64,000 nucleotides of DNA, taken from assembly GCF_001865995.1 (NCBI RefSeq), contig NZ_MLQQ01000001.1, positions 558,001-622,000 of the forward strand. The letters run 5' to 3'. The translations under genes were made by a program, and so were the position numbers. This document shows, one piece after another, positions 415 to 64,000 of the stretch (positions within the stretch are counted from its first letter, which is position 1; each line of letters starts with the position of its first letter). Source of the stretch: Anaerobacillus arseniciselenatis. GTDB lineage: Bacteria; Bacillota; Bacilli; Bacillales; Anaerobacillaceae. The notes under the pieces were generated by a model that was given only the letters and a program-made list of their open reading frames with translations, was not told the DNA's origin and did no database searches.

Positions 415-559
415 GTTCTTCTCCTCCAAATATCGTAATTTATTTTCATTCGGTAATTCAAAATTTAAACTTACATATAAAACCAACATGACGATGCACC
501 GTCAAGTATCTATTTTAATACAAAACCCTCGACAGAATTCCTTTACTATCTTCCATGTA

Positions 560-640
560 AAGTCGGGCGATTTCCTTCTCTTCGCTGTAAACCTCTATCG
601 AGTTTTAGAGGCTCGTTCAGGAAAATCGCCCTCCTTTTTT
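560..640. repeat. R2 intergenic structured repeat, copy 1
   Basis: Member of the R2 family, lying in the ribBA-ribH gap. Outer arms GGGCGATTT and AAAATCGCCC pair. The core reads CCTCTA, TCGAG, TAGAGG, CTCG, so a hairpin (CCTCTA with TAGAGG) has a loop whose CGAG can pair with the CTCG that follows. An AT-only palindromic stretch (672-718) lies between this repeat and the ribBA stop. No gene is visible here; a reading frame across it is judged spurious. Confidence 0.8.
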
Positions 641-1914: not shown

Positions 1915-2028
1915 AAGATTCCCTCCTTGGTATACTTTCTAAAATCCCCCTAAAAAGAACAAGACATCAAAAGCAAAAGTTGATCATACAAAGCCTTTAT
2001 GCGAAATATTCCACCATCTAAAATGTAA

Positions 2029-2110
2029 AAGGAGGGCGATTTCCTTCTCTTCGCTGTAAACCTCTAACGAGTTTTAGAGGCTCGTTCAGAAAATCACCCA
2101 CCTTTTTTCA
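2029..2110. repeat. R2 intergenic structured repeat, copy 2
   Basis: R2 copy between ribE and ribBA. The arms AGGAGGGCGATTT and AAATCACCCACCT pair at about 11 of 13 positions. The core carries CCTCTAA, CGAG, TTAGAGG and CTCGTT as in the family consensus. The usual right flank, CATACAAAACACCATGAC, follows. It lies inside the presumed rib transcript, so it would be transcribed as an internal hairpin. Confidence 0.8.
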
Positions 2111-4020: not shown

Positions 4021-4168
4021 AAAGCATCGCTAAATAAACAGGTAACACCTATATTTTTTCATAAACAAATCTATATCAATTACTCGACATAATCCTGCTT
4101 ATAACTTATTGTCGGAAAATCATTTCCAACAAATTAAAATATAGAACATACCCATCAATTACACAATA

Positions 4169-4313
4169 CCTTCTCCCATCCAGACTTTACTGTCGGCTTT
4201 GGTTTCTCACCAAATCCACCGCTTCACACACATATCGTAAAACGGGTCACGGGCTTAGAAGCAACAGCTTCATCACCGCCGGTTGGGAATTTCACCCGAC
4301 CCCGAAGGTAGTT
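4169..4313 (-). promoter_or_regulatory. FMN riboswitch (RFN element)
   Basis: The minus strand carries the conserved RFN blocks in order: CTTCGGGGTCGGGTGAAAT, CCCAACCGGCGGT, AGCCCGTGACCCG, GGTGGATTTGGTGAGAAACC, GCCGACAGT and GTCTGGATGGGAGAAGG. These form the six-helix FMN aptamer. It precedes ribD and an attenuator hairpin, so the expected effect is FMN-dependent premature termination. A TATAAT (4370-4375) with a possible TAGACA at 19 bp spacing (4395-4400) on the minus strand is a candidate promoter. Confidence 0.97.
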
Positions 4314-4455: not shown

Positions 4456-4533
4456 CTTTTACATACAAAACTGTCATGACGATTTAATCCACACCATCTA
4501 ATATGTAAAACCCTCATAACGGTAATCGTCACC
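4456..4533. repeat. R2-type flank fragment
   Basis: Contains only the flanking module of R2 (ACATACAAAAC, TCATGACGAT, CACCATCTAATATGTAAAA), apparently twice, without the paired core. It shows that the flank can occur without the hairpin. The rest of 4380-4640 has no gene that I can support. Confidence 0.5.
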
Positions 4534-6793: not shown

Positions 6794-7005
6794 GGTAAAA
6801 GCTATTCGTAACCTCACGTTTAAGTAGTCCTCCACTGCTTTGGCAGTGACAGTTCGTTATTTATTCAATAACGAACCAGCGAAGATGAAGTGGGCCCCTT
6901 CACTTCTTCACTTCGGCAAATTGACCTTTCCAGCTGTTTCAACGCTTCCCTAGCTCCACAGTGTAATCATTCGCATTGCACCTCTACCTCATTAACAAAT
7001 GAGGA
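6794..7005 (-). promoter_or_regulatory. Lysine riboswitch (L box)
   Basis: The minus strand reads GAGGTAGAGGTGC near 6980-6992, then GGAAAGG, TTTGCCGAAGTGAAG, GCTGG, ACTGTCACTGCC and GGAGGACTACTTA. These are the conserved L-box blocks in order. The aptamer is followed at once by an intrinsic terminator. It controls lysA here rather than the aspartokinase gene it regulates in B. subtilis. Confidence 0.92.
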
Positions 7006-14390: not shown

Positions 14391-14595
14391 TATTAAAAAG
14401 TAAAAGTATTATTCTTAAGAAATATTGTGCTAGAAAGTGATTTCTATAAAGTTGTCTTTCAATCCTTCTTACTGACAAAACTAGTGCTTATTCGGCAATA
14501 ATAGAAAATTATTTTATGAAGGGTACTCATTTTTATTAGAAGGTATCTATACAAGATCTCTCAAGACGATCAATCGTCACCATTAATTATGTGAA

Positions 14596-14674
14596 AATTC
14601 CGGACGGTTTCACTCACTTCGCCGTGACCTTCTAACGAATCTCAGACGCTCGTTCGCGAAACTCGCCCGTCATT
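14596..14674. repeat. R2 intergenic structured repeat, copy 3
   Basis: Variant R2 between dacF and spoIIAA. Outer arms GACGG and CCCGTC pair, with GTTTC/GAAAC next. The core reads TTCT, AACGAA, CAGACG, TCGTT. AACGA can pair with TCGTT as in the pseudoknot model, while the first stem is weaker than in other copies. It is flanked by GACGATCAATCGTC on the left and ACGATCCTGACGAT on the right. Confidence 0.75.
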
Positions 14675-14801
14675 TGTTTTACATAAAAAACGATCCTGAC
14701 GATATACCGTCAATTTTTAACATAAAAATCAGGTAAATCAGGTTTTTCCATTCCAACTTACCAACTGTCCAACTACAAAATGAGTACTCCTAAATTTCAC
14801 A

Positions 14802-25266: not shown

Positions 25267-26333
25267 TTATTTTCAATGATCCATTTCATAGCACTTGCAA
25301 CGCCTAAAAAGAAGATAGGGTCATCTTCATATTGTTTGCCCATCGTCTTAAGTGGAACAGGGCTACTAATTAAGCAATGATTAATTACTTGTTCCAGAGG
25401 CTCTATTGCCATCCATTGAACAGAATGTTGTTTTTGGATTTCTTCAACTTGTTTGTTTATTTTTTTGATCATACGACCTGTAATCGTAGGTAAAGGTAAA
25501 ATGCTTTTCGTATATGTAAACTCGGTTAATGGTGTATACGTATGGTGGCTTATTCCTTGATGGCGCTTACGCTCGTCTGCTTCTGAAAGTCTTGGAATCC
25601 ATACAGGAACACCATTTAAACGACCAATAATATTAGCCCAAGACGCTTGTTCAATACCGCTAAAACCGTAATACGTTCCAGATCCTACAACTCCCGGTCC
25701 TAACGTCACAAAAATGATATCTCCATGTAATTTATCACTAGCAAATTGCAAAGCTGTTTGTAGATTTATCGCTTCATATGTCCCGCCGAAAGCTTGACCG
25801 ATCGTTATCGTTGAAAAGCGCTTGTCTTTTTTTAATGTGCGAATGTGGTTACTAACAGTTAACGGAATGCTTGCTTCATCACTTATGATCACTACCATAT
25901 TTCCATCTTTTTTTAAGAAATCCATCGCCCAAAAGCAAATGGGGATCATACTATGTAGCTCTCCTATTAATATATTTTTACCATTTAAAGAAAATCCCTT
26001 CGTAAATAAATCATGATACTTACTCTCTTGCGCTTCAACAGCTAATACACTCAATTGATTAGGTAAGTAACGAGCTTTCATTATATGACCATTTGGTGCA
26101 AAATCCTCTTTGGGTAATGATCGGATAACATTTGTTACGATATCCATTCCACCAGTACCAAGTTTCAACTCTGTTGAAGTAACATTGACAATGATTTCAT
26201 CATTAACATTTGCTCTCGGAGTGATGTGTAAATATAACATCGCTTTATTGGCACTTGCTGAAGTTTTTAGTAATTGAATTTCTTCGTCTTCATACAATAT
26301 TTCTTCGACAATAACTTTTTTTTCTATATACAT
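25263..26333 (-). CDS. DUF3866-family protein
   Basis: 356-residue protein of unknown function that I assign to the DUF3866 family by its overall look: KLGTGGMDIV, GHIMKARYLPNQLSVLAVEAQ, ELHSMIPICFWAM, ISDEASIPLTVS, TIGQAFGGTYEAINLQTAL and VTLGPGVVGSGTYYGFSGIEQ. The segment with ITLGPGVVGSGT looks like a nucleotide- or phosphate-binding loop, but this is inference. No signal peptide or membrane segment. The neighbourhood with nudF and yqxK is common for this family in Bacillaceae. It ends in convergence with mciZ. AGGAG lies before the ATG. Confidence 0.75.
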   Translation of the reverse strand: MYIEKKVIVEEILYEDEEIQLLKTSASANKAMLYLHITPRANVNDEIIVNVTSTELKLGTGGMDIVTNVIRSLPKEDFAPNGHIMKARYLPNQLSVLAVEAQESKYHDLFTKGFSLNGKNILIGELHSMIPICFWAMDFLKKDGNMVVIISDEASIPLTVSNHIRTLKKDKRFSTITIGQAFGGTYEAINLQTALQFASDKLHGDIIFVTLGPGVVGSGTYYGFSGIEQASWANIIGRLNGVPVWIPRLSEADERKRHQGISHHTYTPLTEFTYTKSILPLPTITGRMIKKINKQVEEIQKQHSVQWMAIEPLEQVINHCLISSPVPLKTMGKQYEDDPIFFLGVASAMKWIIENN

Positions 26334-26413
26334 ATACGGTTCTCCTCACCCAGCAAAAATTTTTATTTTCATACAAATGTTCATGAAGGATATTCCGTCA
26401 CCATCTAAAATGT

Positions 26414-26493
26414 AAAAGGCGGGCGATTTCCTTCTCTTCGCTGTAAACCTCTAACGAGTTTTAGAGGCTCGTTCAGAAATCACCCGCCTTTTT
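26414..26493. repeat. R2 intergenic structured repeat, copy 4 (type copy)
   Basis: Arms AAAAGGCGGGCGATTTC and GAAATCACCCGCCTTTT pair at 16 of 17 positions. The core is CTTCTCTTCGCTGTAAA, then CCTCTAA, CGAG, TTTTAGAGG, CTCGTT. CCTCTAA pairs with TTAGAGG, and the loop AACGAG can pair with the adjacent CTCGTT to give an H-type pseudoknot. Flanks ACCATCTAAAATGTAAAA and CATACAAAGCGCTCATG are the usual ones. Confidence 0.85.
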
Positions 26494-26676
26494 CATACAA
26501 AGCGCTCATGGCGGCATGTCGGCAGCCACCAGCTAACATAGAAAGTCGGGTGAATGCCCTAACCAACTTTTCTACAAAACATTATTTCCTTTCGGCAACT
26601 ATTTAACCTTCGATAATTGATATCAACGTTTATCATTGTTATTGTAATACTAGATTTGTGTTACGGAGGGAATAAA

Positions 26677-27594
26677 ATGGAAAAGAGAAAAATTGGTCAT
26701 TCAAACTTATATGCTTCGACGATTGGTTTAGGGTGTATGTCATTAGACCCTAACCACATCGAAAGCGAATATATTATCCATAAAGCGATTGATTCCGGTA
26801 TTAATTATTTTGACACTGCCGATTTATATCAATTTGGAAAAAATGAACAACTTTTAGGTAAAGCGTTAAAAGGGAAGCGGGCCGATGTGATTATAGCAAC
26901 GAAAGGAGGAAATGAATGGAACGTGACTAAAGATAGTTGGAAATGGAATCCGACAAAACGATATATTAAAGAAGCCGTAAAAAACAGTGTGACGAGGCTG
27001 CAAACAGATTATATTGATTTATATCAACTACACGGGGGTACAACCAGCGACCCCATCGACGAAACGATTGAGGCGTTTGAAGAACTTATCTCAGAAGGTT
27101 GGATTCGCTATTATGGAATTTCATCGATTCGTCAAAACGTCATCAAAGAGTATGTACAAAAATCAAATATTGTTAGTGTAATGATGCAATACAGTTTACT
27201 AGATGTAAGACCTGAAGAGGAAGTTTTCGATCTCCTAGCTGAAAATAACATTAACGTCATTGCTAGAGGTCCTGTCGCCAAAGGGCTTTTAACAGATAAC
27301 TACTTGAATAAATTTGAGGGTATAGAAGGTTATTTAAACTACTCTAAAACTGAATTAGAAAATGTCGTTACTGAATTAAAGCAATGGGCTCATAGTTACG
27401 GTTACACTCTTCACGAATTAGCTCTCCATTATTGCTTAGGAAATAAGGCCGTTTCCTCTGTAATTCCAGGCTGTAGTACGATGAAGCAGTTAACAGCGAA
27501 TGTTTCCTGCATTAAGCAACGTTCTCTTACTTCTATAGAACTTATTGAGTTGAGAAAAATTATAAAAACAAACTATTATACTTCACACCGATAA
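26677..27594 (+). CDS. Aldo-keto reductase, YqkF type
   Basis: NADPH-dependent oxidoreductase of the aldo-keto family. The ATG at 26677 has GGAGGG six bases upstream; an earlier in-frame ATG adds a poor hydrophobic stretch. 305 residues. The catalytic tetrad is visible: Asp and Tyr in FDTADLYQFGKNE, Lys in IATKGG and His in YQLHGG. The cofactor loop near VIPGCSTMKQL is typical. B. subtilis has yqkF next to nudF, which this resembles in place. The physiological substrate is unknown. Confidence 0.85.
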   Translation: MEKRKIGHSNLYASTIGLGCMSLDPNHIESEYIIHKAIDSGINYFDTADLYQFGKNEQLLGKALKGKRADVIIATKGGNEWNVTKDSWKWNPTKRYIKEAVKNSVTRLQTDYIDLYQLHGGTTSDPIDETIEAFEELISEGWIRYYGISSIRQNVIKEYVQKSNIVSVMMQYSLLDVRPEEEVFDLLAENNINVIARGPVAKGLLTDNYLNKFEGIEGYLNYSKTELENVVTELKQWAHSYGYTLHELALHYCLGNKAVSSVIPGCSTMKQLTANVSCIKQRSLTSIELIELRKIIKTNYYTSHR

Positions 27595-27703
27595 TTTAAT
27601 AGTTTGTTCGTTGGCTAGTTGGTTTGAAAAAGCTTTAGATGTTGAAATAAGCTCCCTGCTATTTTACATGTAAGATGTGACGAGTAAGTGTGTTGCTTTG
27701 TTT

Positions 27704-27788
27704 GAAAAAGAATGAGTGATTTCCTGAACGAGCCTCTAAAATTCGTTAGAAGTTTACAGCGAAGTGAAGGAAATCGCTCGTTCTTTTT
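27704..27788. repeat. R2 intergenic structured repeat, copy 5 (inverted)
   Basis: Arms GAAAAAGAATGAGTGATTTCC and the complementary end GGAAATCGCTCGTTCTTTTTC. In the reverse complement the core reads CTTCTAA, CGAA, TTTTAGAGG, CTCGTT, with CUUCUAA/UUAGAGG keeping one G-U pair. It sits between the convergent aldo-keto reductase gene and crcB and may serve as terminator for both. Confidence 0.82.
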
Positions 27789-27840
27789 CATAGTAAATGG
27801 AGATAATTGATCGTCATGTGTAGTTCTTTTGAAGAATAGC

Positions 27841-28221
27841 CTAGTTCAATGTTAGAAAAAAAGCGCTACTAAAAAATAAAATAGACAAACTAACTGATAA
27901 TAATACATAGATTAACGCATGCTTTCTTTTACCATCTCGCAATAACTGCATCGTTTCAACACTAAACGTTGAAAACGTCGTAAACGCCCCAAAAAAGCCT
28001 AAACCTATTAATAAAAATAGTGGTGATTCGTATATAATCGGATCGAGTTCACGAAAGAAAATTCCTAAAAATAACCCAAGACCAAAAGATCCAATGACAT
28101 TTACGATTAACATTGCAATTGGGATCGGTGGGTGCTGAAACCTTTTCATAATGAACACCCCAACAACATAACGCAACATTGCCCCGAATCCTCCACCTAA
28201 CATAACTAACAGAGTATTCAT
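27841..28221 (-). CDS. crcB: Fluoride exporter CrcB, subunit 1
   Basis: Small Fluc-family fluoride channel subunit, 126 residues with four membrane helices. Family motifs are GGGFGAMLRYVVG in helix 1, NVIGSFGLG in helix 2 and GFFGAFTTFSTFSVE in helix 3. It shares one base with the stop of the upstream crcB copy, so the pair is co-translated. Paired CrcB proteins in Bacillus commonly act as heterodimers. No fluoride riboswitch was recognised ahead of the pair. Confidence 0.94.
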   Translation of the reverse strand: MNTLLVMLGGGFGAMLRYVVGVFIMKRFQHPPIPIAMLIVNVIGSFGLGLFLGIFFRELDPIIYESPLFLLIGLGFFGAFTTFSTFSVETMQLLRDGKRKHALIYVLLSVSLSILFFSSAFFLTLN

Positions 28222-28637
28222 TAACCTTCACCTACTCTTCTTGACAGTTGATATTTTGCTCCACCTTTTTCCCCAATCATAAACCCTAAAAATGCAAGAA
28301 GCACTCCACCTATTACAGAAATAAATAAATATGTGAACAATAAAAGCCATAGTTCAGCAACTAAAAGGTAGTAAAAATCTGCTGCTAACGTTGACATTGT
28401 TGAAAAGCCTCCACAAAACCCAACACCTAAGCCTGTTTTTAATACCTCATTTAATTTCACATGTATAACAAAACCTGTTAAAATTCCTAATAACAAACTC
28501 CCAACTAAGTTTTCTAATGCAGTTCCTAAAGGAAATAATAAAGTCAACGTTTGGAGGTTAATTGCATATCTAAACAGCGTCCCTAAAGCACCTCCGATGG
28601 CAATAGCTATTAAAGTTAAGTATAACTTTTTAGTCAT
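28221..28637 (-). CDS. crcB: Fluoride exporter CrcB, subunit 2
   Basis: Second Fluc subunit. The ATG at 28635-28637 (MTKKLYLTLIAIAIGGALG) is preferred: the longer frame adds 41 residues that do not look like CrcB. 138 residues, with GGALGTLFRYAIN, NLVGSLLLG and GFCGGFSTMSTLAADF. First gene of the crcB pair. The leader lacks the conserved fluoride aptamer blocks. Two R2 repeats follow upstream. Confidence 0.92.
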   Translation of the reverse strand: MTKKLYLTLIAIAIGGALGTLFRYAINLQTLTLLFPLGTALENLVGSLLLGILTGFVIHVKLNEVLKTGLGVGFCGGFSTMSTLAADFYYLLVAELWLLLFTYLFISVIGGVLLAFLGFMIGEKGGAKYQLSRRVGEG

Positions 28638-28786
28638 AAAAACCACTTCTCTTTCGAAGTTATAATAGTTAAAAGTATAATCAACATTGTAAGTAGATTC
28701 AATATAAGGAGCTTGATCAAGATAGTCAACCAATAACTTTTTTACATACAAAACCCGCATGACGATTAATCGTCACCATCTAACAT

Positions 28787-28875
28787 GAAAAAATCCGGTC
28801 GATTTCCCTCACTGCGCTGTAAATCCGTCCCGGCTTTAGAGGCTTGTTCCGAAAAGTCGACCGTCATTTTATTTT
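28787..28875. repeat. R2 intergenic structured repeat, copy 6
   Basis: Diverged core (GTCCCGGCTTTAGAGGCTTG) with the arms GGTCGA and TCGACC. The left flank ACATACAAAACCCGCATGAC and GACGATTAATCGTC hairpin are intact. It is the first of two tandem R2 units in this gap. Confidence 0.7.
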
Positions 28876-28917
28876 CATACAAAACACTCATGACGATAGA
28901 CGTCACCATCTAATATG

Positions 28918-29001
28918 GAAAAGGCGGGCGCTTTCCCTCACTTTACCTTGACCTTCTTACGAATCTCAGACGTTCGTTCGCAAAAGCACCCGCCTTTTTT
29001 A
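28918..29001. repeat. R2 intergenic structured repeat, copy 7
   Basis: Arms AAGGCGGGCGCTTT and AAAAGCACCCGCCTTTT. In the core the loop is ACGAA and the downstream partner is TTCGT, a double change relative to ACGAG/CTCGT that keeps pairing. This is the clearest covariation for the second helix. It follows copy 6 after the conserved flank. Confidence 0.8.
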
Positions 29002-29170
29002 CTGTTTCTTCGTTTCTATATTAGCATTTTTATTCCTTGAAACCACAACCGTTATAGACATTTACAGTGAAAGAGAGGCTGACATATCGTCACCCCCTCT
29101 TTTTCGTTAAATAATATACCATTTATTTTATGCAGATTTACAACGCACACTTACAATATATGCCTATTTT

Positions 29171-30169
29171 TCATTGCAAAGTATCTTCAAAAGACTTCAA
29201 AATAGAATTACTTTCTAATTCAATCCCAATTAAAATGATACAAGGATCAACTTTAGTTTCTGTTTTTAAGCGATTTAGTATGAGCTGTCCAGAAGAATAT
29301 TGAAACTGAAATAAGCCAACCGTCTCGGTTAATTGAATAACTCCTTTACCACGAACTAAAGTTTTCGGGAGTTGCTTGAACCATTTTTCTAGCTGCAGTC
29401 GATCAATTGGTTCTTTTACATCAATTTGCATTGCTTGAAACGAATGGTTATGTACGTGGTCATTACATGTATGCTCACCACTACAACCACAGTCATTATG
29501 TTCTAGTAAGTTCAATGGCGTTTTCGTGCCACGGCTAGTAGAAATCCGTTTTTTTAGTAGTTGTCCGATCTCGACATCACCAAAAGTCGATTCTACGACA
29601 GGAGCATCAATCTGCTTTAATTGATCAACCTTCTTTTTAACTTTATCAATATTCTTTTCATCAATTAAATCAACTTTATTCAATAAAATGTAAGAACTCG
29701 TAGTAATTTGTGACTTTAAAACAGTACGTACTTCTTTAGAACTTGAAAAAATACTTTGATATTCTAGGTATTTACTAGCATCTAGTAAATTAATCACTGA
29801 ATACAAATCTATATAATTTATTAAAAGAGGATCTGTAAGAGCATCGACAATTTCTAAAGGATTGGCAACTCCCGTTCCTTCAATTAATAAAACGTCCGGT
29901 GTTTCTTCCTTACTTAATGTAGTTAAAAATGAATGCAGTTCCTTCGTAAAATCTCCTTGAATCGAACAACAAATGCAACCGTTAAGCATTTCAAGTACGT
30001 CATCTTCACTAAATAAATCTTCTTCAACATTAGTTTCACCGATTTCATTTAAAACAATTGCCGGTTTAAGGTTTTGTTCTTTATAATAAGTTAGTATTTT
30101 TTGTAGTAAAGTCGTCTTTCCACTTCCTAAAAAACCTGTAATAATATAAGCGGGTACGATTTTTGCCAT
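29171..30169 (-). CDS. COG0523 (CobW/YciC-type) GTPase, putative metallochaperone
   Basis: G3E-family GTPase thought to insert or deliver a metal, often zinc. The 332 residues show Walker A GFLGSGKTTLL, the metal motif CxCC in LNGCICCSIQGDF, LLIEGTGVANP and the guanine motif NKVD. Between the GTPase and C-terminal domains lies a Cys/His-rich loop (NDCGCSGEHTCNDHVHNHSF, about residues 226-245) likely to bind metal. AGGTGGAG precedes the ATG. It is divergent from a UPF0718 permease and TIGR03943 pair, a common association. A Fur-family-like palindrome is in the leader. Confidence 0.9.
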   Translation of the reverse strand: MAKIVPAYIITGFLGSGKTTLLQKILTYYKEQNLKPAIVLNEIGETNVEEDLFSEDDVLEMLNGCICCSIQGDFTKELHSFLTTLSKEETPDVLLIEGTGVANPLEIVDALTDPLLINYIDLYSVINLLDASKYLEYQSIFSSSKEVRTVLKSQITTSSYILLNKVDLIDEKNIDKVKKKVDQLKQIDAPVVESTFGDVEIGQLLKKRISTSRGTKTPLNLLEHNDCGCSGEHTCNDHVHNHSFQAMQIDVKEPIDRLQLEKWFKQLPKTLVRGKGVIQLTETVGLFQFQYSSGQLILNRLKTETKVDPCIILIGIELESNSILKSFEDTLQ

Positions 30170-30225
30170 TAAACTTCTCCACCTTTCTTAAGCTAAATTT
30201 AGCATAACGTAGAAAAAAGCTCAAA

Positions 30226-30240
30226 TAAGAATCATTACTT
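30226..30240. promoter_or_regulatory. Weak Fur/Zur-type box upstream of the COG0523 gene
   Basis: Reverse complement AAGTAATGATTCTTA keeps the centre of the Zur/Fur-type palindrome (GTAATnATT) and the outer A, about 9 of 14 positions of TCGTAATnATTACGA. It lies about 57 bp before the start codon, next to a perfect palindrome GCTAAATTTAGC (30192-30203). Suggestive only. Confidence 0.35.
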
Positions 30241-30398
30241 TTTAAGATGAATCCATCATGGCGATTTTCCGCCACCAAAGCTACTGCACTCAATTACACC
30301 ATGGATTACAGCTTCGAGACTACTACATGTTGCTTTGCGACAAGAAAACATACTTCGCTGCATTACTAGGAGACGCAAGAGCTTCCCCTTCTACCATG

Positions 30399-30481
30399 TA
30401 AAAGGCGGGCGTTTTCCTTCTCTTCGCTGTTTATTTCTTGGCGAAATAAGAAGGCTCGTTCAGGAAATCACCCGCCTTTTT
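30399..30481. repeat. R2 intergenic structured repeat, copy 8
   Basis: Arms AAAAGGCGGGCGTTTTCC and GGAAATCACCCGCCTTTT. The first core stem has a different sequence, TTTCTT with AAGAAG, yet still pairs, and the loop GGCGA can pair with TCGTT using wobbles. It is independent support for the core fold. Confidence 0.8.
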
Positions 30482-30651
30482 ACAAAACCACCATGACGCT
30501 TAGTCGTTCCTTTCCAACAAACCACTAACAATCTAACCAACAAACTAACCAACTATCCATCTTTTTCATACAAAACCATAGTTTTTGTTGAAAAAGGGAT
30601 AAAAAGGTCGATTCATTGACGACTAATTTATGTTAAAATACAATAATGGAT

Positions 30652-30767
30652 TAATGAATTTATATCAATATGATCACCATTAAGTATCTATAAGTAGTTG
30701 CGATAAACCACTTGCAACTACTTATAGTTTGATATGGCTCAGTTAAGGTATCTATGAAATTCACTCG
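30652..30767. repeat. R1 palindromic element, copy 3
   Basis: Ends AATGAATTTATATC and TATGAAATTCACT. Centre CTATAAGTAGTTGCG / TGCAACTACTTATAG: the T-to-A change in one arm is matched by A-to-T in the other. It ends 91 bp before the UPF0718 permease start. Confidence 0.88.
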
Positions 30768-30858
30768 AATAATAGTTTTATAGTTTTATAATTTTATTTT
30801 TAAGTGAAATGCATGCTTAAAAGTTTTCAATAAAAATTTACAATAGGAGTAGATCATT

Positions 30859-31887
30859 ATGAACTTAAAAGAGTCTGCATCTTCTTTAGTAAAAGATTTA
30901 CTCGGTGTTGCTTTATTACTAGTCTTTTTATTACTATTCTTTAATTATGATAGAATAACCACTTCATCATTTATTGATATACCAACTAGTATCGTTAACG
31001 TAAATACGATCTTTATTAGTATTATTATAGAAGCATTTCCGTTTATTTTATTAGGCGTTTTCGTTTCTGCACTCATTCAAATTTATGTGTCAGAGGATAC
31101 TATTCAAAAATACTTACCGAAAAGTGCACTAGGAGCATTATTTCCTGCTGCTGTTCTCGGCGCTATTTTCCCAATATGTGAATGTGCGATTGTCCCTGTC
31201 GTTCGCCGTTTAATAAAGAAAGGTATGCCTTTACATGTTGGTGTCGTCTTTTTAGTTGGAGCTCCGATTCTTAATCCAGTTGTATTTGCTTCTACTTTTT
31301 ATGCTTTTAGAAACAACCCAACTGTTTTATATTCGCGAATGGGACTTGCGTTTATTTTAGCAATTTTAATTGGTGCGATCATTTACTTTATTTTTAGAAA
31401 AAACACAGATCAATTAAAATGGAGTAGAGATGAGTTGGTAGGGAAACAAGTAACACAAGTTATAACACCACAGAAAAAGCGAAACCGTGTAAAACAAACG
31501 ATGTACCATGCTGCTGACGAGTTTTTTATGATGGGAAAATATCTAATTGCTGGAGCTTTTATTGCAGCTCTATTCCAAACATATTTAGATCGAAGTATAT
31601 TACAAGCACTTGGTACTAACGAATATTCAGCAACATTTGTAATGATGGTATTTGCATATGTATTATCATTATGTTCTGAAGCGGATGCATTTGTTGCCGC
31701 ATCTTTTGCAAACAACTTTACAACTAGCTCAATCATTGCCTTTTTAGTTTACGGTCCAATGGTCGATTTAAAAAATACAGTAATGATGCTTGCTTTGTTT
31801 AAAACAAAATTTGTATTAGTGTTCATCACTACTGTAACAGTTGTCGTTTTCAGCTCTGTGCTCCTTTTAGAGTTTTTCATTTTATAA
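30859..31887 (+). CDS. UPF0718 permease (YcgR/YraQ type)
   Basis: Predicted inner-membrane permease of 342 residues with about eight hydrophobic segments. Family marks are PICECAIVPVVRRLIKKGMP, VGAPILNPVVFAST and the second half motif LCSEADAFVAASF. TAGGAGTAG stands before the ATG. It precedes by 27 bases a TIGR03943 protein (like B. subtilis ycgR-ycgQ) and is divergent from a COG0523 GTPase. Association with metal homeostasis or thiol/metal export is inferred from neighbours; substrate unknown. Confidence 0.87.
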   Translation: MNLKESASSLVKDLLGVALLLVFLLLFFNYDRITTSSFIDIPTSIVNVNTIFISIIIEAFPFILLGVFVSALIQIYVSEDTIQKYLPKSALGALFPAAVLGAIFPICECAIVPVVRRLIKKGMPLHVGVVFLVGAPILNPVVFASTFYAFRNNPTVLYSRMGLAFILAILIGAIIYFIFRKNTDQLKWSRDELVGKQVTQVITPQKKRNRVKQTMYHAADEFFMMGKYLIAGAFIAALFQTYLDRSILQALGTNEYSATFVMMVFAYVLSLCSEADAFVAASFANNFTTSSIIAFLVYGPMVDLKNTVMMLALFKTKFVLVFITTVTVVVFSSVLLLEFFIL

Positions 31888-35992: not shown

Positions 35993-36080
35993 GAAAATGC
36001 TCGGCCGCCTTTCTTTCGCTTCGCTGTAAAATTCTAACGAATTTTAGAGGCTCACTCAAGAAAAGCGACCGAGCATTTTC
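35993..36080. repeat. R2 intergenic structured repeat, copy 9
   Basis: Arms GAAAATGCTCGGCCGCC and GCGACCGAGCATTTTC. The core has TAAAATTC / GAATTTTA as an alternative perfect stem, and the second helix is lost (CTCACT in place of CTCGTT). The fold is therefore only partly conserved here. Located between licT and cimA. Confidence 0.75.
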
Positions 36081-36159
36081 CTCATATAAAAGTTATGAAT
36101 TTCTTTTCCAGCTTTCCAACTAACCAACAAACCAACTAACCAACTATTACACACAAAAA

Positions 36160-38190: not shown

Positions 38191-38211
38191 CACTTCAATA
38201 AATTATATAAA

Positions 38212-38281
38212 TACTCGTATAATCGCAGGGATATGGCCTGCAAGTTTCTACCGAATTACCGTAAATGATTCGACTACGAGT
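38212..38281 (+). promoter_or_regulatory. Guanine riboswitch (purine class)
   Basis: P1 is ACTCGTA with TACGAGT. Conserved TATAATCGCAGGGATATGG, CAAGTTTCTACC and CCGTAAAT are present. The specificity base is C (CGACTACGAG), which indicates guanine rather than adenine. It precedes xpt and a purine permease, the classical targets. Confidence 0.96.
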
Positions 38282-38283
38282 GG

Positions 38284-39027
<744 letters not shown>

Positions 39028-40715: not shown

Positions 40716-40744
40716 GTTGGTTTGTTGGTTTGTTGGTTTGTTGG
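40716..40744. repeat. 8 bp tandem minisatellite (GTTGGTTT)n
   Basis: GTTGGTTT repeated about three and a half times just after the permease stop. Related CCAAC-rich strings (AACCAACAAACCAACTA and similar) occur near R2 copies at about 16078, 30512, 36115 and 54120. The association may be a by-product of slippage or recombination. Confidence 0.7.
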
Positions 40745-40832
40745 TCAGCTAGTTGGAAAGTCGAAAGTTTGAAAGATTAGTTCTGGACTTTTACATTCTA
40801 AAGTGTGAAACTACAACTTCATAATAGTTTTG

Positions 40833-40918
40833 TAAAAAAGAACGAGTAATTTCCCGAACGAGCCTCTAAAATTCACTAGAAGTTTAAAGCGAAGAGAGGG
40901 AAATTGCTCGTTCTTTTA
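40833..40918. repeat. R2 intergenic structured repeat, copy 10 (inverted)
   Basis: Arms AAAGAACGAGTAATTTCCC and GGGAAATTGCTCGTTCTTT. First of three tandem units. In reverse complement the loop AGTGA pairs with TCGTT using G-U pairs. Confidence 0.82.
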
Positions 40919-40960
40919 CATATTAGATGGTGACTATATAACGTCATGTGCGTTTTGTAT

Positions 40961-41044
40961 GAAAAAAGGTGGATGATTTCGTGAACGAGCCTCTGAGATT
41001 CGATAGAAGGTCACAGCGAAGAGAAGGAAATCATCCACCTTTTC
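40961..41044. repeat. R2 intergenic structured repeat, copy 11 (inverted)
   Basis: Arms AAAAAGGTGGATGATTTC and GAAATCATCCACCTTTT pair perfectly. The core has CTTCT/AGAGG. Second of three tandem units, joined by the conserved flank TTAGATGGTGAC and TCATGTGCGTTTTGTATG. Confidence 0.82.
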
Positions 41045-41087
41045 CGTATTAGATGGTGACGGAATGGTCGTCATGTGCGTTTTGTAT

Positions 41088-41172
41088 GAAAAAAGGTGGA
41101 TGGTTTCATGAACGAGCGTCTGAGATTCGCGAGAAGATCACGGCGAAGCGAGTGAAATCATCTGCCTTTTTC
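41088..41172. repeat. R2 intergenic structured repeat, copy 12 (inverted)
   Basis: Arms AAAAAGGTGGATGGTTTCA and TGAAATCATCTGCCTTTTT. Third of three tandem units, followed by a GATGCTGGTAATATACCAGC hairpin. Confidence 0.78.
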
Positions 41173-54017: not shown

Positions 54018-54199
54018 CCTACTCCACCTTTCTAGTTAACCAATTAACCAACTTTTCCATACAAAACGCTCATGATAGGTGCCGTCACCTTCTAAAATAT
54101 AAAGGTCTAGGGTTTCCCTTTCCAACTAACCAACAAACCAACTGTCCAACTATTTTACATACAAAACGATATATCTTTAATTTTTTGCACACAAAAAAC

Positions 54200-55311: not shown

Positions 55312-55344
55312 TAAAAAAACTTAGTGATTTAAAGCGTTGAAAGG

Positions 55345-55560
55345 GAATAGTAAATAAACGTTTTGGCGAAAGAGAGTGGAATTCACCGGCTGAAAGATTC
55401 CATCGCAAAAAAACTTATTGAACCTGCCCTGGAGCTGTTAGGCCAAACCCTAGCCGTCTTACCTGCGTTAACGGTTAAAGAGGACATCTCATAGATGTCA
55501 ATTAAGGTGGTACCGCGGATAACCTTCCGTCCTTTTTTATAAGGATGGAAGGTTTTTTTA
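55345..55560 (+). promoter_or_regulatory. Proline T-box leader with terminator
   Basis: The T-box sequence AAGGTGGTACCGCGG is at 55504-55518. Stem I contains the AG bulge region GAAAGAGAGTGGAATTC, and the specifier loop reads GAA-CCT-GCC with CCT (55423-55425), a proline codon. The terminator CCTTCCGTCC / GGATGGAAGG with TTTTTTTA ends at 55560. Uncharged tRNA-Pro should allow read-through into proB. Known for proBA in B. subtilis. Confidence 0.93.
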
Positions 55561-58990: not shown

Positions 58991-59146
58991 CTTTTTTGTG
59001 TTCGAAGAGAAGGAAATCATCCGCCTTTTCATTCAAGATGGTGACGGACGCTTCTATAAAACTTTCAATATTTATTCCATCAAACTAAAAAATCTAGTAG
59101 AATAAACATTAGTGTTTAATAAAGCTCTTTTGTGTGGAGGAAAACT

Positions 59147-63669: not shown

Positions 63670-63854
63670 ATATGTCACCCCTTAGAACTTTTTATTAATT
63701 CTCCCCAAAAATAAGCACAATTAACCATGAAACTCTAGTTGCATTTGAGACAGCTGTCAGTTGACAAATTTTTTTCTGGCTTCTAGTATAGATAAGTGGG
63801 CATTACCTTTTTTCATACAAAACGTTCATGAAGATAATCGTCACCATCTAACAT

Positions 63855-63940
63855 GTAAAAGAACGAGCAATTTCCTTCTCTTCGCTGTAAACTTCTAACG
63901 AATTTTAGAGGCTCGTTCAGGAAATTACTCGTTCTTTTTT
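63855..63940. repeat. R2 intergenic structured repeat, copy 13
   Basis: Arms AAAAGAACGAGCAATTTCC and GGAAATTACTCGTTCTTTT pair with one mismatch. Core CTTCTAA, CGAA, TTTTAGAGG, CTCGTT. Both flanks are present: CGTCACCATCTAACATG on the left, TACAAAACGCTTATGACG on the right. The right flank runs into the window end, where another unit may begin (GTAAAAGATCGTTCACTG). Confidence 0.85.
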
Positions 63941-64000
63941 CATACAAAACGCTTATGACGATTATTCGTCACCATCTACTGTGTAAAAGATCGTTCACTG

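Follow-up and report, generated by a model that had tools for sequence, protein, structure and literature searches.

What is the short hairpin-forming sequence that recurs between the genes of Anaerobacillus arseniciselenatis, how and on which strand does it fold, and does the fold serve the host or the repeat? We analysed a window of 64,000 nucleotides (C1:558001-622000) from genome G000, an assembly of 3.95 Mb in 58 contigs that is 80% complete. The original prediction placed 13 copies of the sequence, R2, in this window, and all 13 are there at E 7.4e-16 or better, a recovery that holds by construction because the covariance model was built from those 13 copies. They occur in both orientations (nine plus and four minus as originally read), and none lies inside the open reading frames (ORFs) called with a simple script, in agreement with the intergenic placement claimed for them. 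The strands that we give for features are those of the folded strand, the reverse of the one originally read. On this basis the copy at issue lies at 26412..26494 (-), with the outer stem GGCGGGTGATTTC/GAAATCGCCCGCC and the inner hairpin TAAAACTCGTTAGAGGTTTA on the folded strand; further minus-strand copies lie at 556..640, 2025..2108, 14593..14677, 28788..28871, 28917..29000, 30398..30482, 35994..36079 and 63856..63939. Plus-strand copies lie at 27705..27788, behind the plus-strand ORF 26617-27594, and at 40835..40918, 40962..41045 and 41089..41172, the first, second and third of one array. A short partial R2-like match, on the minus strand of the original reading, is present at 59003-59030.

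The alignments support an R2 fold in which a conserved internal loop separates an outer stem of 17 pairs from an inner hairpin; it was tested as the outer stem plus the pairs G32-C61 and C33-G60 and an inner hairpin in columns 36-43/49-56. In the 13 window copies, 90.5% of cells are paired against 79.3% after shuffling, with covariation of 0.336 against 0.133. A larger alignment, A4, takes in the best 150 of 169 matches, 148 of them distinct; there 90.9% of cells are paired against 78.0%, covariation is 0.362 against 0.139, and sliding the partners along the alignment brings covariation to 0.118 at most. These statistics are not probabilities, because this alignment was built to fit the structure and its rows are related to one another, and the cell counts tally sequences, not events. 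Double changes occur at 21 of the 26 model pairs in the 148 copies. The outer arms vary and compensate as originally proposed, with double changes at 10 of 17 outer pairs in the 13 copies and at 14 of 17 in the 148. Model pairs account for 12 of the 13 strongest mutual-information pairs in the 148 copies, and short inner helices of 3-4 pairs change on both sides as well (columns 37-55, 41-51, 42-50 and 43-49); the model pair 39-53 is mismatched in 82 of the 148. The inner hairpin itself differs among window copies, with a CCG/CGG helix (on the originally read strand) in the copy at 28788..28871 and eight uninterrupted pairs in the copy at 35994..36079.

The core had been read differently, as an H-type pseudoknot. 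The consensus copy does permit pairing of CCTCTAA with TTAGAGG and of CGAG with CTCG, and the CCTCTAA/TTAGAGG stem belongs to the predicted reverse-strand fold of the copy at issue. Against this, the two core helices have 81.7% paired cells, practically the same as the 81.6% of shuffled alignments and leaving 18% unpaired, and their covariation (0.118) does not rise above the shuffled mean of 0.131 in the 13 copies. The list of the 45 pairs with the highest mutual information in the 148 copies contains none of the 11 pseudoknot pairs, in an alignment fitted to the rival structure, and the connecting loop would have zero length, with no base between TTAGAGG and CTCG, which makes the arrangement sterically doubtful. 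Given the absence of covariation in the crossing helices and of any pseudoknot pair from the top 45, we rejected this structure as highly improbable. The letter changes cited in its favour are real and belong to other pairings. In 8 of the 13 copies, columns 51 and 61, the compensating pair cited for copy 28918, do not pair; what changes in that copy is CTC/GAG to TTC/GAA in the inner hairpin, with G32-C61 becoming A-T beside it. In copy 30399 (30398..30482), the whole inner hairpin is swapped for TTATTTC/GAAATAA on the originally read strand. What stands of the original prediction is that the family is dispersed and intergenic, with a core that is conserved and changes that truly compensate; the pseudoknot falls.

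Which strand adopts this fold can be read from mismatches of the G.U type. Cells of this type number 161 on the reverse strand, where the strand of the original prediction has C.A, and 41 on that strand; weighted for similarity, the values are 20.6 and 4.6, or 14.2 and 4.5 without the two dominant pairs, and 20 pairs lean toward the reverse strand while 7 lean the other way. Folding energies agree: of 148 copies, 127 are more stable as the reverse strand when RNA energies are used and 130 when DNA energies are used. The folded strand is accordingly the opposite of the one first proposed, and since it is favoured under both sets of energies, RNA and single-stranded DNA are indistinguishable by this measure. 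By base counts, its conserved internal loop reads GARYRA opposite GAAGNGA, a sequence suited to tandem G-A pairs, which may form there.

Matching arms might instead be a product of mutation, through template switching between the arms or the spread of a few variants, and so be uninformative about selection on shape. Outer-stem variants do form subfamilies common to many copies, and the counts are of sequences rather than events. Yet the inner helices of 3-4 pairs are altered on both sides too, and a G.U bias toward one strand is not expected from symmetric DNA repair of arms; we consider a purely mutational origin unlikely. What compensation reveals is that a single strand folds in each lineage. 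Alone it does not show an RNA function, because most copies share a recent origin and the copies differ between two related genomes.

R2 forms arrays in alternation with a second hairpin module, R1, which is ~44 bp long and has a variable stem of its own; the original prediction had missed these arrays, the stable reverse strand and the strong orientation bias. In the stretches searched, 176 of 178 clusters are co-oriented, and 115 hold both modules (counted by hand). Within the window, the R2 copy at issue is flanked by R1 at 26370..26412 (-), a small hairpin with a variable stem and the folded-strand end ..GTTTTGTATG, and at 26494..26539 (-). Other R1 modules lie at 28745..28787, 63814..63855 and 63941..63979 (all -), and three are sandwiched between two R2 copies, at 28876..28917 (-), 40919..40961 (+) and 41047..41088 (+). 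A partial R1 is found at 14682..14712 (-), and R1 occurs without R2 as two R1-like modules at 4462..4533 (-) and as a module at 54058..54098 (-) that overlaps a short ORF call.

Two further repeats belong to the arrays. A third module, (GTTGGTTAG)n, lies on their folded-strand 5' side, with at least two of its words within 170 nt before the first R1 or R2 in 92 of 147 arrays. T modules in the window are (GTTGGTTT)n at 40716..40745 (+), where the 40.8-41.2 kb array has its folded-strand 5' end, and (TTAGTTGG)n on the folded strand at 36116..36146 (-), adjoining the 35994 copy; a T-like tandem repeat at 30514..30553 (-) adjoins the 30398 copy. The fourth repeat, R3 (79 bp, GCTACTGACCTCAATCACATCATG...CGACGAGTAACCGCAGGAGCA), is nested in R1 or R2, usually just ahead of TCTAA-like letters and in the same orientation (for example L072:3942-4107, L062:9762-9925 and window 30280-30348). 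The window copy of R3 follows a partial R1 (30253-30277), and this pair (30253..30348, -) adjoins R2 at 30398. Along the folded strand, an array often begins behind a host intrinsic terminator (hairpin and T-run) and continues with a GTATG-like start, AAAA, then R2 or (GTTGGTTAG)n, CATGTTAGATGG, the R1 hairpin, CATGnnnGTTTT, GTATG, the next unit and finally the downstream gene. R2 contributes a long stem, a purine-rich internal loop and an inner hairpin, edged by ATG..CAT-like flanking ends, and several arrays end shortly before a start codon or ribosome-binding site. A palindromic repeat of another kind, with the stem CTATAAGTAGTTGC / GCAACTACTTATAG, occupies window positions 30651-30766; it has dispersed matches in all six genus mates searched and is missing at the corresponding place in G006.

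We determined how widely the element occurs by comparing G000 with six genus mates (G001-G006) and 34 genomes from other families of the same order. The R2 model matched at least 150 places in the G000 contigs. Under stricter filters it found 78 matches in G006, one in G004, none in G001, G002, G003 or G005, and none in any of the 34 genomes from other families. Row filtering removed 80 of 218 rows as opposite-strand echoes or as falling below the filter and kept 138, of which 137 are from G000 and one from G004. The single G004 copy (L035) is arranged with R1 in the same order. An exact R1 pattern matched 31 times in G000, 13 times in G006 and never in the other five genus genomes, yet a divergent R1 is visible by eye at the G004 locus. 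In a contig collection, a first DNA pattern for the element found no match, and a looser one found 30 stretches, all in one metagenome-assembled genome, Anaerobacillus sp. CSSed162cmA_503, which we take to be G006. Phage and plasmid searches matched no copy, and we dropped an origin of that kind. An integron attC-like site was a further candidate, considered on general grounds and not retained. That no named family has this core also held up: Rfam 15 places no family on R2 in the whole window at gathering score, and three weak, chance-level matches at 26000-31000 up to E 10 put no plausible family on any R2 copy. Among the titles and opening lines of abstracts returned by a literature search, none describes an R2/R1 element. 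Riboswitch-type RNAs above the gathering score in the window are a T-box leader (55328-55537) and FMN (4164-4313), lysine (6817-6994) and purine (38195-38296) elements.

The arrays are strongly oriented relative to the chromosome. We scored G000 stretches, taking the leading strand from GC skew per stretch and excluding elements at stretch ends, elements inside ORF calls, R3 and two gaps of mixed orientation; the stretches were selected because they hold copies, so no genome-wide density is claimed. Single-orientation gaps number 128, and in 110 of them the folded strand points along the leading strand. Tandem leading-strand genes enclose gaps that agree in 78 of 82 cases, divergent genes in 19 of 26 and convergent genes in 10 of 13, and there is no bias between tandem lagging-strand genes (3 of 7, that is 3 to 4). 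An involvement of replication is supported by the divergent and convergent gaps and not by the few tandem lagging-strand ones; as these last are unbiased, replication and transcription are poorly separated. The four copies in the window that point the opposite way lie behind plus-strand genes, which is compatible with transcription and replication alike.

A minority of the arrays also start close to terminators. For 93 arrays, a co-directional gene lies upstream at a distance of 25-600 nt; a terminator-like hairpin and T-run precede the start in 50 of them, and the T-run comes to within 15 nt of it in 36, a few of which may involve a decayed R1 unit instead of a host terminator. The folded-strand 5' end has a T-run within 12 nt in 32 of 141 arrays, the opposite end in 11 of 141 (Fisher p 0.0008). 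The same comparison gave 2 against 1 of 17 in G006 and 2 against 0 of 12 in the window, numbers too small for significance. In the window, the copy at 35994..36079 is preceded on the folded strand by a terminator-like hairpin and T-run plus a T module, and no terminator separates the 40.8 kb array from the stop codon before it. At the 32 junctions between T-run and array, the first array base is G in 27, the second T in 27, the third a mixture of A, T and G, the fourth T in 21 and the fifth G in 22. Array starts are GTATG- or GTGTG-like, with G at position 3 in 8 of the 32 only.

The folded strand might instead act as RNA, in a leader or 3'-UTR, on the stability, termination or translation of neighbouring genes and be selected site by site. 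In most gaps the stabler strand reads along with the genes, sequence conservation peaks in the internal loop, whose form is suited to the G-A pairs proposed above, and several arrays end near a start codon or ribosome-binding site. Set against this, many copies occur in just two of the seven genus genomes, part of the arrays lie behind terminators, where low transcription is expected, and matched sites in two related genomes differ in content or show no element. We regard a role as RNA as the main rival to the reading we prefer and as unlikely.

The matched sites also show that the arrays change. Many R2 copies have close relatives at other places: of the 150 rows of alignment A4, 88 have a nearest neighbour at least 95% alike with gap columns counted. 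Of 19 G000 arrays with both flanks on one G006 contig, the profile found R1 or R2 in G006 at 6 and neither at 13, three of the 13 being arrays without R2 in G000 either (R1 and/or R3 only). By alignment, both the 26414 site and the L065:17396 site, which the profile had scored as empty, contain remnants of other subtypes in G006; the 28788/28917 site has two units, again of other subtypes, and the L048:12517 site nothing except a T-module piece. Array sites are partly common to the two genomes, and their contents change. In the G006 sites aligned, remnants or rearranged sequence stand in place of a clean empty site with defined ends, which leaves no target-site duplication to define of the kind that MITEs combine with terminal inverted repeats.

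We conclude, with a probability of roughly one half, that R2 belongs, as one of several modules, to a repeat that is young, non-coding and non-autonomous and inserts one way and partly at terminators. Our observations accord with a repeat that was active recently, for whose spread the single-strand fold is important and which host genes merely tolerate. To spread, the element would insert in a strand-specific manner after a hairpin with T's behind it, perhaps into the single strand exposed at the replication fork; this is the lagging-strand template, which has the sequence of the folded strand. Since each unit ends in a hairpin and TTTT, its own end could serve as the target for the next unit, and one-way arrays would result; we infer that insertion behind a hairpin and T-run, each unit supplying the next place, is the simplest account of the one-way alternating arrays. 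The fold would then be the substrate recognized by a putative mobilizing enzyme acting in trans.

Two kinds of enzyme are candidates for moving such a repeat. One is a Y1 (HUH) transposase like those of IS200/IS605 or REP/RAYT systems, acting on hairpins in the lagging-strand template. Palindromes derived from these systems are likewise small, dispersed hairpins, in an orientation that would fit that template, and the summary in PMC6006769 gives IS608 and ISDra2 a lagging-strand preference. The paired hairpin modules, the fixed orientation, the identity of the folded strand with the lagging-strand template sequence and the presence of Y1 proteins in all six genus mates suit this route. However, G000 (80% complete) has no Y1 match, the single Y1 gene of G006 is flanked by a different, GGGACAGGTCCC-type palindrome, and near the eight Y1 loci fetched no R1, R2 or R3 match was better than E 0.6. 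We find this route improbable and, given the missing gene in G000 and the other palindromes beside the G006 gene, have set a RAYT origin aside. The RAYT-like gene of G006 (L154:1468-2238) encodes 256 aa, and the GGGACAGGTCCC-type palindromes on either side of it constitute a repeat family distinct from R2/R1.

Mobilization in trans by the reverse transcriptase of a resident group II intron, which itself sits behind terminators, has a slender chance of being the route. Introns with reverse transcriptase genes are present in G000 (L158, L160) and G006 (L159, L161), and those at L158 and L159 start with GTGTG and GTGCG shortly behind a terminator stem, resembling the GTATG- or GTGTG-like array starts. 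These two are probably class IIC, because of their terminator position, their starts and the 422-aa reverse transcriptase in L158. According to PMC4424553, class IIC introns insert at intrinsic terminators in a single orientation; one-way insertion behind such terminators and a GTRTG-like start are what they would share with the arrays. The likeness of the starts, however, amounts to five bases, with the G at position 3 in the minority of junctions noted above. The R2/R1 unit, unlike these introns, measures ~128 bp and has neither recognizable ribozyme domains nor its own reverse transcriptase. Rfam group II models match the introns L158-L161 and have no match up to E 10 in 26000-31000, and the unit therefore contains no recognizable domain V. 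The group II intron protein is a candidate mobilizer by its target habit alone.

Two pneumococcal repeats invite comparison. As outlined in PMC3049150, BOX elements of Streptococcus pneumoniae are modular, intergenic and folding, with a variable number of tandem inner modules, and in architecture and Rfam matching, the terms on which we compared them, our arrays are likewise modular, intergenic and folding. The arrays differ in their strict alternation of two hairpins, a copy-specific outer stem, frequent starts at terminators and, in nearly every array, leading-strand orientation. SPRITE, in the same outline (PMC3049150), is itself terminator-like, and it recalls R2 in its long stem with a T-rich side and in a terminator proximity that comes from resemblance; here, by contrast, host terminators precede the arrays, and R2 has a conserved internal loop. 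The repeat that we favour could even be a bacterial analogue of a SINE, a non-autonomous two-hairpin unit borne as RNA or single strand and inserted one way behind terminator hairpins by a host reverse transcriptase or other strand-specific enzyme (the resident group II intron protein being one candidate), with its own hairpin-plus-TTTT end as the next target, an extension that we hold to be unlikely as a whole.

What the arrays of Anaerobacillus add is a modular bacterial repeat with a well-supported fold and strand, a fixed module order and a possible target rule. With two copy-rich genomes and four genus mates without copies, its gain and loss are testable. If insertion at terminators is true, it would show small non-coding repeats multiplying without damage to genes and would offer a simple cause of one-way arrays.
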